From contig JAPYUM010000036.1 of assembly GCA_029940535.1 (NCBI GenBank), positions 1-39,695 of the forward strand: 39,695 nt of DNA, given 5' to 3'. The notes beneath the pieces are model-generated. The model was not told the DNA's origin. It saw only the letters and a program-made list of their open reading frames with translations, and ran no database searches. Shown here piece after piece: positions 13,860 through 18,544 of the stretch. This DNA comes from Vicinamibacterales bacterium (GTDB lineage: Bacteria > Acidobacteriota > Vicinamibacteria > Vicinamibacterales > UBA8438). Position numbers and translations under genes: made by a program. Position 1 is the stretch's first letter, and each line of letters begins with the position of its first letter.

Positions 13860-15056
13860 CTACCGTGCGCGCGGCGCGCCCGGTCTCAGCAACGGCCCGA
13901 CCGGCAGCGTCAGCGACAACGTCTCTGTCCTCGGCGTGTAACAGATCGTCTCGCTGCAGACCTGGAACAGCACCGACACCGGCACCACCAACGTCTCCGG
14001 CTGGTCGCTTTTGCTCGGACCGAACAGCTCGGCGTTCGGCGTGATCGGAATCGCAACATCGACGACGCCCTCGTACACGTTGAGCGTGACCCCCAACTCG
14101 GGGAACGCGCGCGTGTGGGTCGTGGGGTATCGCGTGGCCCCCACCCGCAGTCCGGGCGTATCCGGGATGCTCGCCTCGGAGGCGATGTAGCCGTCGGGCA
14201 GCGGACGGCCATACATGTGCAGGCCCTCCTCGAGCTCGAACCGCACGTAGACCGTCGACTGGGTCTCGAACCTCAGCGACGGATCGGACAGGAAGGCGGA
14301 GATCTGAACCTGGTCGGTGCCCAGCTCGATGGCCGGTGCCTCGTGACGAGCCAGAATTTCGCCCAGGGCGGAGTCGCGGATGGCGCCGGCCGACTCCCGG
14401 GTACCGTAGTGCCGGTGGAAGAACTTCTCGGTGACTACACCGTGCTCGTCGGTCACGTAGACGCCGGGGAACGGCACGCCGTAAAAGCTTTTACCCGCCG
14501 CCTGCTCGGGGTCGTCGGGTGAGACCAGCGTGTTGAGAATACCGAACTCACGGATCACGGCCGAATCGGTGTCCGACAACAGGTCGTAGGTCACGTCGTA
14601 CTGCTCCGCGAAAGCCAGGAGTTCCTCTGAGCTGTCATAGCTGATGCCGTAGACGCGGATACCGGCGTCCTCGAAGAGTTCCAGGTTGTCTTGCAGCTCG
14701 ACCAGCTGCGTTCGGCAGTATGGTCACCATACCGCCGAGCGGTAGAACACCACGACCGACTTCGAGTCGCCCCGGTCAGCGTGGTAGTCGACCAGGCGCC
14801 CCTCCTGGTTGGGCAACGAGAACGACGGGAGTCGCTCGCCAACGTCGGGTCCGGTGGGAAACTCCTGAGACGCCGGATATCGACGGCCAGGGTGGTCCAC
14901 CGGAATGCCGATGGTAATGCCGAGGTCGTCGGTGCGGGTGCCCGGCTCGAGGCTGTCGTGGGCGGGCCGCACCGCCTCCGGCGTCTGCGCCGCGGCCGCG
15001 GCGGCCACACCCAGCAGCAGCGTCATCGTCCCCAGGACGTTCCCATGTCTCATCAT
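13860..15056 (-). CDS. Peroxiredoxin-like selenoprotein (Sec111) with DsbD-like C-terminal domain
   Basis: Read through one TGA (14726-14724), this gives 398 residues. There is a signal peptide (about 1-23) and an AhpC/TSA peroxiredoxin fold (residues 72-230). The TGA falls in VVVFYRSAVW-U-PYCRTQLVEL, exactly where relatives have SADWCPYC, giving U111-P-Y-C114. The same frame continues with normal peroxiredoxin sequence (GIRVYGISYDSSEELLAFAE, SFYGVPFPGVYVTDEHGVV). Residues 240-390 resemble the N-terminal domain of DsbD, with C367-SETI-C372. The start at 15056 has GGGAGA upstream; ATG 15086 is possible. A SECIS-like hairpin follows the TGA. The likely role is periplasmic peroxide or disulfide reduction, with the C-terminal cysteine pair as a possible electron relay (inferred). 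Confidence 0.88.
14693..14709 (-). promoter_or_regulatory. Bacterial SECIS-like hairpin after TGA 14726-14724
   Basis: On the minus strand GCAGCT (14709-14704) pairs perfectly with AGCTGC (14698-14693) around the loop GGTCG. The loop is 20 nt from the TGA and starts with GGUC, as in the known E. coli fdhF element. Stem length, loop length and spacing equal those at 1348-1364. Confidence 0.85.
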
Positions 15057-15183: not shown

Positions 15184-16179
15184 ATGAAGCGCCGCACGTT
15201 AGGAAAGAGCGACATCGACGTGTCCGCGATCGGCCTCGGCTGTATGGGCATGTCGCAGAGCTACGGTCCCGGCGACGACGAGGAGTCGGTCAAGACGCTG
15301 AATCGGGCCCTGGACCTCGGCGTCAACTTTCTGGATACCGCCGCCATCTATGGGAACGGCGCCAACGAACAACTGCTTGGCCGCGTCATCCCCGACCGGC
15401 GAGATGACGTCGTGCTGGCCACCAAGTGCGGCATTCAGGCGGCGGCCGTGGGGCGCCCGAGCGGTCTCGACGGGTCGCCGGAAGAGATCCGTCGCTCGTG
15501 CGACGAGAGCCTGCAACGGTTGAACGTAGACGTCATCGATCTCTTCTATCTCCACCGGGTCGACCCCAAGACCCCGATCGAAGACTCGGTCGGCACCCTG
15601 GCCGAACTGGTCCGGGCCGGCAAGGTCCGGCACATCGGACTGTCGGAGGCGGCGCCGGCGACCATTCGGCGCGCCTACGACGTCCACCCGATCACGGCCG
15701 TCCAGAGCGAATATTCCCTATGGTGGCGTGGCCCGGAAACACAGGTCCTGCCGGTCTGCCGCGAGCTTGGCATCACCTTCGTGCCGTTCTGCCCACTCGG
15801 TCGCGGCTTCCTCTCCGGGCGTGTCTCCAGCCTCGCGCCCCTTCACGATGAGGACCTTCGGAGACGGCTGCCACGCTTCCAAGGCGACAACCTGGCCAGG
15901 AATCGCATGTTGGTGGAACATCTCGAGGCGTTCGCCGCAGAACGCGCGGTGCCCCCTTCGCAGATTGCTCTCGCGTGGATCCTCGCCAAGGGCGACAACA
16001 TCGTCCCCATTCCAGGGACAAAACGACGCGCCTATCTCGAAAGCAACGCGGCCGCGATGGAAATCTCGCTCTCGCCGACCGAGATCACCGAGCTCGAGGC
16101 GCTGTTTCCTCCCGACGCTGCGGTGGGCGAACGCTATAACGAACAGATGGCGCAGTGGGTGGACCGCACGACGGCCTGA
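15184..16179 (+). CDS. Aldo/keto reductase
   Basis: The product has 331 residues with no signal peptide, so it is cytosolic. It is a TIM barrel with the AKR catalytic tetrad D51, Y56 ([14 protein letters not shown]), K81 (VLATKCG) and H124 (FYLHRVD). The NADPH-binding tail [19 protein letters not shown] is present. The sequence resembles the AKR13 / YakC branch, which reduces small aldehydes. It is divergent from the selenoprotein gene (start 15056), sharing a 127-nt gap, and about 260 nt upstream of the PQQ dehydrogenase. Start ATG 15184; no strong ribosome site. Confidence 0.92.
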
Positions 16180-16438
16180 GCCTGGTTTCCCGCCGAGGTG
16201 CCCGCCGAGGGCGGACGTCGCGGCATGGCTCAGCGGGGTCACAGCCCGCCTGGCTGCTCCCTCCTTGCGCCTTGCCAGCCGAACACCTCGACAGGAAACC
16301 CCCTCGGAGCTTTTCCGCGGCCTGTCAGGACCCGCGCGGTCGCATCTGTCCGTGCCGGCTGCTACCATGGCTGCGCGGTTGCCGCGCCCGGGTGCTCGGG
16401 TGCGTGGACCACGAGACCAGACGACAGGAGTTACTGCC

Positions 16439-18544
16439 ATGAAAGCCGACCCACGACGTTGGGCCACTCGCACTGTGACACTCGGACTCGGACTCGTGTT
16501 GGCCGTGACCTGCGGCCTGCTCGCGCCGAGCGCTGCGACTGCCCAGGGGCCCGGGACCGCGGACGGACAATGGACCTACTTGGGCGGCGACGCCTGGCAC
16601 ACTCGGTACACCCCCGCTGACGAGATCACCGCGGAGAACTTCAACGACCTCGAGGTCGTGTGGGAGTGGAGTGCGACCAGCTTCGGGCCCAGCACGGCGC
16701 GGGCCACGCCCACGTATGTGGACGGCAAAATGATCACGGTGGCCGGCGACCGGCGTCACGTGGTGGCGCTCGACCCAAAGAACGGCGACCTGATCTGGAG
16801 CTTCCGCGAGCCGAACACCGCCCGCCACGACTACTCGATGCGGAAGGGCTACGGCAAGGGCATCGCCTATTCCGAGATCGACGGAAGGGGCGTCATCTTC
16901 ATCACCTCGCCGGCCTTCTTCCTCCATGCGCTGGACGCCGACACCGGCGAGCCCCTCGAGAACTGGGGCCGCCCGGTGCCGATCGACGGCTTCGAGCCAA
17001 GTGGCACGGTCGACCTGGTCGAGGACCTGATCTCCGACTGGGGCCCGTGGATCTCCATGGACCGGCCGTACGACGCCGGTCAGGGCATCCCGATCGAGAT
17101 CGGCTATGTCACGGCGTCGTCCCCGCCGATCGTGGTCAACGACACCGTGGTCGTCGGCAACTCCGCCGAGCAGGGGTATCTGCAGACCCGGGTCGAGAAC
17201 GTCCCGGGTGACATTCTCGGCTACGACACGCGCACCGGCGACTTCAAGTGGAGGTTCCACGTCGTGCCGAGACCCGGCGAGGTCGGGCACGAGACCTGGG
17301 AGAACGACGCCTGGCAAACCATCGGCGACGTGTCCTCCTGGGCGCCCATGTCGGCCGACCCTGAACTGGGGCTGGTCTACATCGTCACCAACGGGGCCAC
17401 CATCGACTACTACGGCGGACATCATCCGGGCGATAACTTATTCAGCACGAGCATCATCGCGCTGGACGCCGACACCGGGGAACGACGATGGCACTACCAG
17501 ATGGTGCACCACGACATCTGGAACTACGACACGCCGACGGCGCCTGTCTTGATGAACGTGACGGTCGACGGGCGCGAGGTGAAGGGCCTGTTCCAGGCGA
17601 CCAAGCAGTCGTTCCTCTACGCCATCAACCGCGAGACCGGCGAGCCGATCTGGCCGATCGAAGAGCGCCCGACTCCCCGCCAGTCCAACGTTCCCGGCGA
17701 GCAACTCGCCGCGACCCAGCCGTTCCCGACCAGACCGGCGCCATACGACCTGCAGGGACGCACCGAAGATCACTTGATCGACTACACCCCGGAGATCAAG
17801 GAGATGGCGCGTCAGGTGGCGTTGGAGAACAACCTGTTCAATAACCTGTTCGACCCGCCCACGACCATCGACGACCCGGCGGGACCGGCCTGGAACTGCC
17901 CGGGAGGCGGAGGCGGCACCAATATCACCGGACCGGCGGTGGGTGACCCGGTCAACGGGATCATCTTCACCAGTTCGCAGAGCAACTGCTTCCGACTACA
18001 GGTGATGCCGGGCGTGGAGTCGCCGCTCGACGAACTGGAACAGTCCGGCACCACGCACACTGACTGGGCGGCGGTGTCCACCACCGTGCGCGGCAGCATC
18101 GAGCAGTTCACCATCGACGGGCTGCCAATTTGGAAGGGACCGGTCGGCCGGATCACGGCGATTGACGTCAACACCGGCGACCACCTCTGGGCCGTCCCCT
18201 ACGCGGACGCCACCGAGGCACAGCAGGACCGCATCCGGAATCACCCGCTCGTGCAGGGGCTCGACGGGGTCGAGATCAACCGTGGCCGTGGCGGGAATAC
18301 CGCGATGGTGGTGACGCCGACGCTGCTCATCGCCGGCGGGCTGAGTGCCGACAACACCCCCATGCTCTACGCTTATGACAAGCAGACCGGCGAGCGGGCC
18401 GGCGGTATCGAGATCCCGGGCGTCACCCGGTACGGCATGTCGAGCTGGGTGCACGATGGGCACCAGTACGTCATCGTGCAGCTGGCCAACGGTCTCGCCG
18501 CGGTGGCGATGCCGAGTGCCGCCCCCGGCGGCGACGGCCACTAG
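16439..18544 (+). CDS. PQQ-dependent quinoprotein dehydrogenase
   Basis: The product has 701 residues with a signal peptide (about 1-36). It has eight-bladed propeller repeats: ALDPKNGDLIWSF, LDADTGEPLENWG, ALDADTGERRWHYQ, AINRETGEPIWPIEE, VNTGDHLWAVP and AYDKQTGER. QMVHHDIWNYDTPTAP and NITGPAVGDPVNG resemble the PQQ pocket of glucose- and alcohol-type dehydrogenases. There is no CxxCH, so electrons must pass to a separate carrier. GACAGGAG precedes the ATG. It ends 4 nt from the convergent Uma2 gene. The substrate (alcohol or sugar) cannot be fixed from sequence. Confidence 0.9.
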   Translation: MKADPRRWATRTVTLGLGLVLAVTCGLLAPSAATAQGPGTADGQWTYLGGDAWHTRYTPADEITAENFNDLEVVWEWSATSFGPSTARATPTYVDGKMITVAGDRRHVVALDPKNGDLIWSFREPNTARHDYSMRKGYGKGIAYSEIDGRGVIFITSPAFFLHALDADTGEPLENWGRPVPIDGFEPSGTVDLVEDLISDWGPWISMDRPYDAGQGIPIEIGYVTASSPPIVVNDTVVVGNSAEQGYLQTRVENVPGDILGYDTRTGDFKWRFHVVPRPGEVGHETWENDAWQTIGDVSSWAPMSADPELGLVYIVTNGATIDYYGGHHPGDNLFSTSIIALDADTGERRWHYQMVHHDIWNYDTPTAPVLMNVTVDGREVKGLFQATKQSFLYAINRETGEPIWPIEERPTPRQSNVPGEQLAATQPFPTRPAPYDLQGRTEDHLIDYTPEIKEMARQVALENNLFNNLFDPPTTIDDPAGPAWNCPGGGGGTNITGPAVGDPVNGIIFTSSQSNCFRLQVMPGVESPLDELEQSGTTHTDWAAVSTTVRGSIEQFTIDGLPIWKGPVGRITAIDVNTGDHLWAVPYADATEAQQDRIRNHPLVQGLDGVEINRGRGGNTAMVVTPTLLIAGGLSADNTPMLYAYDKQTGERAGGIEIPGVTRYGMSSWVHDGHQYVIVQLANGLAAVAMPSAAPGGDGH

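Follow-up and report, generated by a model that had tools for sequence, protein, structure and literature searches.

Gene structure and predicted product

The window analysed here is a stretch of 39,695 nucleotides from a Vicinamibacterales bacterium (GCA_029940535.1, contig JAPYUM010000036.1). On its reverse strand, at 13860..15056, lies a gene predicted to encode a selenoprotein of 398 aa that consists of a signal peptide, a peroxiredoxin (Prx)-like domain with a UxxC motif and a DsbD_N domain. The ORF (15056-13860) contains 398 codons, is closed by a TAG stop and has a single in-frame TGA at codon 111 (14726-14724). The gene stands alone. A divergent aldo/keto reductase gene is located at 15184-16179 on the forward strand, and downstream there are a small ORF without any Pfam match and a gene for a metallo-beta-lactamase-fold protein. 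A PQQ dehydrogenase beta-propeller gene is also found nearby (15728-18541, forward strand), and a relative of it adjoins the fusion gene in another locus (L012).

The putative signal peptide covers approximately residues 1-24 (MMRHGNVLGTMTLLLGVAAAAAAQ; 14985..15056, reverse strand). It was recognised from sequence and hydropathy, has a hydrophobic core without a lipobox Cys, and the homologs start with similar leaders. Judged by eye, it looks like a Sec-type signal peptide, and the protein would thus be exported, in agreement with the earlier note on this DNA. We searched the protein against Pfam with the TGA read as an amino acid, and both domain matches exceeded the curated cut-offs. AhpC-TSA matched at residues 72-210 (14427..14843, reverse strand; E 7.9e-29) and DsbD_N (PF11412) at residues 264-382 (13911..14267, reverse strand; E 7.5e-12, 45.8 bits with a cut-off of 25). 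Such a domain search had been suggested in the earlier note, and it recovered both of the domains named there. The same two profiles were present in 16/16 family members of the family alignment, and none of the NCBIfam models reached its cut-off for the window protein. The whole protein contains Cys or selenocysteine (Sec) only at residues 111, 114, 367 and 372, and these four positions are invariant in 22/22 aligned relatives. In the full-length structure model confidence is low at residues 175-230, and the placement of the UxxC site relative to the Cx4C site in it is uncertain.

Selenocysteine coding at codon 111

The TGA at codon 111 (14724..14726, reverse strand) lies within the motif W-U-P-Y-C. 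Among 84,980 species genomes scanned, 32 relatives of the query were found. Every homolog in another assembly with coverage of codon 111 (30/30, 58-84 % identical) has TGA there, while the one distant match, from Sulfopaludibacter (31 % identity), has TGC. More distant members of the family carry TGC or TGT in place of TGA, and the retrieved loci, read at the residue level, have W-U-P-[YFW]-C or W-C-P-Y-C there. In a 27-member tree, four changes are required to account for the four Cys sequences, which means at least four separate switches between Sec and Cys. The in-frame TGA is therefore aligned with Cys of homologs, a hallmark of bacterial selenoproteins. A chance event or sequencing error at TGA 14726 was considered and ruled out by the presence of TGA in 30/30 homologs from independent assemblies.

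Another hallmark, a SECIS-like hairpin directly downstream of the TGA, was also found. The putative SECIS element, GCAGCU-GGUCG-AGCUGC (14693..14709, reverse strand), begins 15 nt past the UGA, that is from +18 to +34 counted from its U. Codons 116-121 (ACG CAG CTG GTC GAG CTG) are identical in 27/27 genes; the mean codon identity between two groups at amino acid-identical sites of the gene is 0.57, and nowhere in the gene are codons better conserved than directly 3′ of the TGA. In a paralog group the hairpin takes the form GCAGCUC-GUG-GAGCUGC. In a 24-nt fold its energy is -10.4 or -11.6 kcal/mol, and it is intact in every Sec gene read, whereas among the Cys genes read it has decayed in three of four (-3.4, -2.5 and -5.5 kcal/mol) and is retained in one. 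The latter case is a Cys-type fusion in locus L039 (4001-5017, forward strand), and its SECIS-like hairpin is as expected after a recent change from Sec to Cys. Some caution is due, as the window's own 40-nt stretch, folded in isolation, prefers a different stem, and in folds of a longer stretch of the window the hairpin loses to a stem involving bases immediately 3′ of the UGA. Rfam gave no SECIS match at the window site.

The host genome encodes selA, selB and selD, each above its family cut-off, and tRNA-Sec. We examined co-occurrence with selA in 48 other fusion-bearing genomes. The gene was present in 36/41 genomes with a Sec copy and in 2/7 with Cys copies only (Fisher p 0.0025), and the five Sec genomes in which selA is missing may be incomplete assemblies. 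In one genome (G028) the fusion gene is followed by selA on the same strand. In another (G175, L094 124-3949, reverse strand) an AIR-synthase-family gene, which we read as selD-like, selA and the Sec fusion gene are arranged in this order on a single strand.

The alternative is that translation truly ends at TGA 14726 or that this codon is a sequencing error, the two halves being separate or forming a pseudogene. Nothing except the standard code speaks for this reading, and it is contradicted by the conservation of the TGA and of the codons 3′ of it, by the hairpin, by the switches to Cys and by the co-occurrence with selA. We consider its probability vanishingly small. The window protein is, as predicted from genes alone, a selenoprotein, and the earlier proposal of a selenoprotein with TGA at 14726-14724 is borne out by TGA conservation, Cys switches, hairpin and Sec machinery.

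Redoxin domain and its active site

The AhpC-TSA domain adopts a Prx fold in the structure model, with VIA Z scores of approximately 18-19. To this extent it resembles catalytic peroxiredoxins, but the active site differs from theirs. We aligned it with peroxiredoxins of the BCP and AhpE types from PDB and with ResA-like and Prx proteins encoded by the host genome. Sec111 falls on the position held by Thr/Ser in TxxC of peroxiredoxins and by the initial Cys in CxxC of thioredoxins, and its partner Cys114 (14715..14717, reverse strand) occupies the place of the peroxidatic Cys. The TGA had previously been taken to stand for the peroxidatic cysteine, which is off by three residues. The peroxiredoxin motif PxxxT/SxxC is absent from the window protein, which reads RSAVWUPYC with Sec replacing Thr.

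The place of the catalytic Arg, six residues before a conserved Asp in peroxiredoxins, is taken by an invariant Pro197 preceding Asp203, while a Prx of the same genome used as a control (L006) has Arg at the matching position. Pro197 was assigned by motif counting; the mafft alignment is gapped near PFPG and differs from this motif reading, so that the assignment rests on the spacing to Asp203. Read in this way, Pro197 resembles the residue of thioredoxins at the same position. With both the motif and the Arg missing, the description of the domain as a normal peroxiredoxin could not be upheld. The PF00578 profile and the UxxC motif are those of the Prx-like selenoprotein family. The position of Sec111 at the Thr/first-Cys place, of Cys114 at the peroxidatic place and the presence of Pro197 point to a Prx-like domain with a thioredoxin-type UxxC, and the active site is, by alignment, of the TlpA/Prx-like thiol-oxidoreductase type on a Prx fold.

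These features bear on the possibility that the protein is a true periplasmic peroxidase, in which the selenol would reduce peroxides and the DsbD_N domain would recycle the selenol. The Prx scaffold, with its VIA Z scores and AhpC-TSA profile, is consistent with such a role, and selenols are good peroxide nucleophiles. A precedent is known from Caulobacter, where the ScsB-TlpA-PprX chain supplies a peroxiredoxin of the envelope (Cho et al. 2012, reviewed in PMC5403849). It resembles the system proposed for the window protein in that the relay belongs to the DsbD family, but the Caulobacter proteins are separate and the excerpt of the review notes no Sec in them. We nevertheless regard a peroxidase as rather unlikely, given the missing PxxxT/SxxC, the location of Sec away from the peroxidatic place and the invariant thioredoxin-like Pro at the place of the catalytic Arg.

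DsbD-like C-terminal domain

With the full model as query, the Prx domain took up the hit lists of both Foldseek and VIA, and we therefore predicted and searched the C-terminal domain separately. The isolated domain was modelled with pLDDT 86. The top 11 rows of its VIA list were N-terminal domains of ScsB/DsbD (Z 10.3-12.2), with adaptin ear domains at 8.4, and the Foldseek search of the isolated domain agreed with the ScsB/DsbD N-domain fold. The fold starts around residue 242, somewhat ahead of the Pfam match. The earlier note had proposed a DsbD N-terminal-like domain after the redoxin and structure prediction as a check on it; both the profile and the best matches of the isolated model support this proposal.

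The pair Cys367-x4-Cys372 (13941..13958, reverse strand) is located where it had been placed before, within the DsbD_N domain. In alignments the two residues match the redox Cys pair in the E. coli nDsbD chains 5nhi and 3pfu, as well as the pair within QACNETMC in the host's full-length DsbD (contig C115). The window Cx4C is one residue shorter than the spacing in E. coli nDsbD and equal to that in the host DsbD. With the N-domain of DsbD/ScsB (PF11412; PDB 6c29, 1vrs, 1l6p) the window domain thus shares the profile, the predicted fold and the redox Cys pair. It differs in being C-terminal to a redoxin and in having no DsbD_TM and gamma domain after it. As neither DsbD_TM nor a C-terminal thioredoxin domain was among the Pfam matches of the window protein, it is not a whole DsbD. 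Its C-terminal part is, according to the model, nDsbD-like with an immunoglobulin fold and carries a Cx4C pair.

Such a domain could also serve purely for docking or structure, its sole task being to bring the redoxin into contact with DsbD or a substrate. Ig-like domains frequently mediate binding, and the overall identity to nDsbD structures is low (12-18 %). On the other hand, no member examined, not even those of the Cys type or with 31 % identity, deviates from C367 and C372, and we find a purely docking role very improbable.

Distribution and genomic neighbourhood

In a sample of 396 Acidobacteriota genomes the full-length fusion was found in 49, with about 55 copies containing the in-frame TGA and eight Cys copies, as counted by hand from the match list. 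The eight copies provide the Cys-containing relatives with the same fusion for which the earlier note had proposed a search. No full-length match to the fusion was found in plasmid records. The fusion family is real, widespread in the phylum and apparently undescribed. Two more Sec-type redoxin/DsbD_N fusions are encoded in the same genome (L002, G000:C49:13095-14183, and L003, G000:C25:67676-68629). They share about 30-35 % identity with the window protein, so that this genome has three paralogs.

We did not find any conserved operon that would point to a substrate, as neighbours differ between groups. Those in common are confined to close relatives, namely the PQQ dehydrogenase, and GST with homogentisate dioxygenase in one group (f51). 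In one genome (G309, L092 831-4188, reverse strand) a Sec fusion gene lies downstream of dsbD in the same orientation, separated from it by one small ORF that has no Pfam match. Regarding DsbD itself, the situation is less uniform. The host genome has a full-length DsbD, while some fusion-bearing genomes (G028, G054 and G277) have only short CcdA-size DsbD_TM proteins, and three fusion-bearing genomes have no DsbD_TM protein at the threshold used. Co-occurrence with DsbD does not discriminate, since in the genomes tested DsbD_TM is nearly universal and about equally common without the fusion.

Possible electron flow

Sec coding, the two domains with their folds, the four invariant redox residues and the occurrence across the phylum are supported by computation. 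Beyond this, we infer a mechanism of electron flow. We lean towards a UxxC redoxin that is re-reduced in cis by its own nDsbD-like C367/C372 pair, which is in turn fed by DsbD or CcdA. The selenol would attack an oxidised periplasmic substrate, which may be a protein disulfide, a low-molecular disulfide or a hydroperoxide, and a Sec111-Cys114 selenenyl-sulfide would form. The fused nDsbD-like domain would then reduce this bond in cis through C367/C372. The resulting C367/C372 disulfide would be reduced by the membrane pathway, from the gamma domain of DsbD or, where DsbD is missing, from a CcdA-linked thioredoxin. In the fusion, one molecule would hold both the final step of the DsbD relay and the client that it serves.

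This relay is suggested by the DsbD_N profile and fold, by the invariant C367/C372, by the Cx4C of the full-length host DsbD and by the order of dsbD and the fusion gene in G309. The reduction of the thioredoxin-like N-domain of PilB by nDsbD (PMC6210582) is a precedent for the step from nDsbD to a client, and the ScsB-TlpA-PprX chain of Caulobacter (PMC5403849) is a further precedent for a single step. Counted against it are the genomes with short CcdA-size proteins or no DsbD_TM and the mostly unconserved neighbourhood. The protein had been described earlier as a possible self-contained reductase, which appears doubtful because its four redox residues would still require an electron source from outside.

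Electrons could also flow in reverse. The Sec domain would then become oxidised by peroxide or a different oxidant and pass a disulfide via C367/C372 to clients, as a disulfide-forming or redox-sensing protein. The redox residues would be identical in this case, anatomy does not fix the direction, and some relatives have no full-length DsbD. Known nDsbD domains are, however, reductants of Trx-fold partners (PMC6210582), and dsbD lies close to the fusion gene in G309, which makes the reverse flow quite improbable.

If the relay from DsbD through C367/C372 to Sec111 works, it would show how an exported selenoenzyme stays reduced in an oxidising compartment, and it would offer a one-chain model of electron transfer from nDsbD to a client. 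As a tentative suggestion, a little short of probable, the protein may be a Sec envelope reductase that carries a terminal DsbD relay, the first Sec enzyme in the DsbD/CcdA pathway and one of the commoner selenoprotein architectures of Acidobacteriota.

Comparison with known selenoproteins

Prx-like thiol:disulfide oxidoreductase selenoproteins with UxxC or UxxU (PF00578) are included in reviews of 2022 and 2026 (PMC9312934, PMC13188914). The window protein shares with the UxxC ones the AhpC-TSA profile, the Sec-first motif and the predicted redox role, but their listing mentions no C-terminal DsbD_N domain. TsoB (NF045694), listed in PMC13188914 as a rhodanese/DsbD fusion-like selenoprotein, is likewise described as a DsbD-like fusion. 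It differs by its rhodanese partner and by UxxxxU with two Sec, and the window protein has no NF045694 match. In the GOS ocean samples, according to the excerpt of PMC2398784, Prx-like 2/3 selenoproteins are fused to Cys-bearing unknown domains, which resembles the combination of a Prx-like selenoprotein and a domain with conserved Cys seen here. Unknown_3, the partner of Prx-like 3, is probably set apart by its description in that excerpt, having CxxC and three conserved Cys as compared with two in Cx4C in the window domain.

Both parts of the protein are known, and as far as the searched literature goes, it is their fusion that is new. The earlier note knew of no characterised protein with such a fusion, and this still stands, as the redoxin/DsbD_N fusion is absent from the selenoprotein lists consulted for comparison and from the literature searched, although the search covered open-licence literature and is weak evidence of absence. 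The family is sizeable, and automatic annotation likely halts at the TGA and calls two broken genes.

The redoxin half may also occur alone. Many shorter matches with one in-frame TGA were found (e.g. in G033:C6, G275:C17 and G088:C3), and unfused candidates of the UxxC type are common across the phylum. The window itself contains a second selenoprotein candidate at 728-1978 on the forward strand, which, when its TGA at 1331-1333 is read through, gives an AhpC-TSA protein of 416 aa with the motif WASWUGC. Its best NCBIfam model is NF041054, the ResA-like WAxxUGC protein (2.9e-78, below the cut-off).
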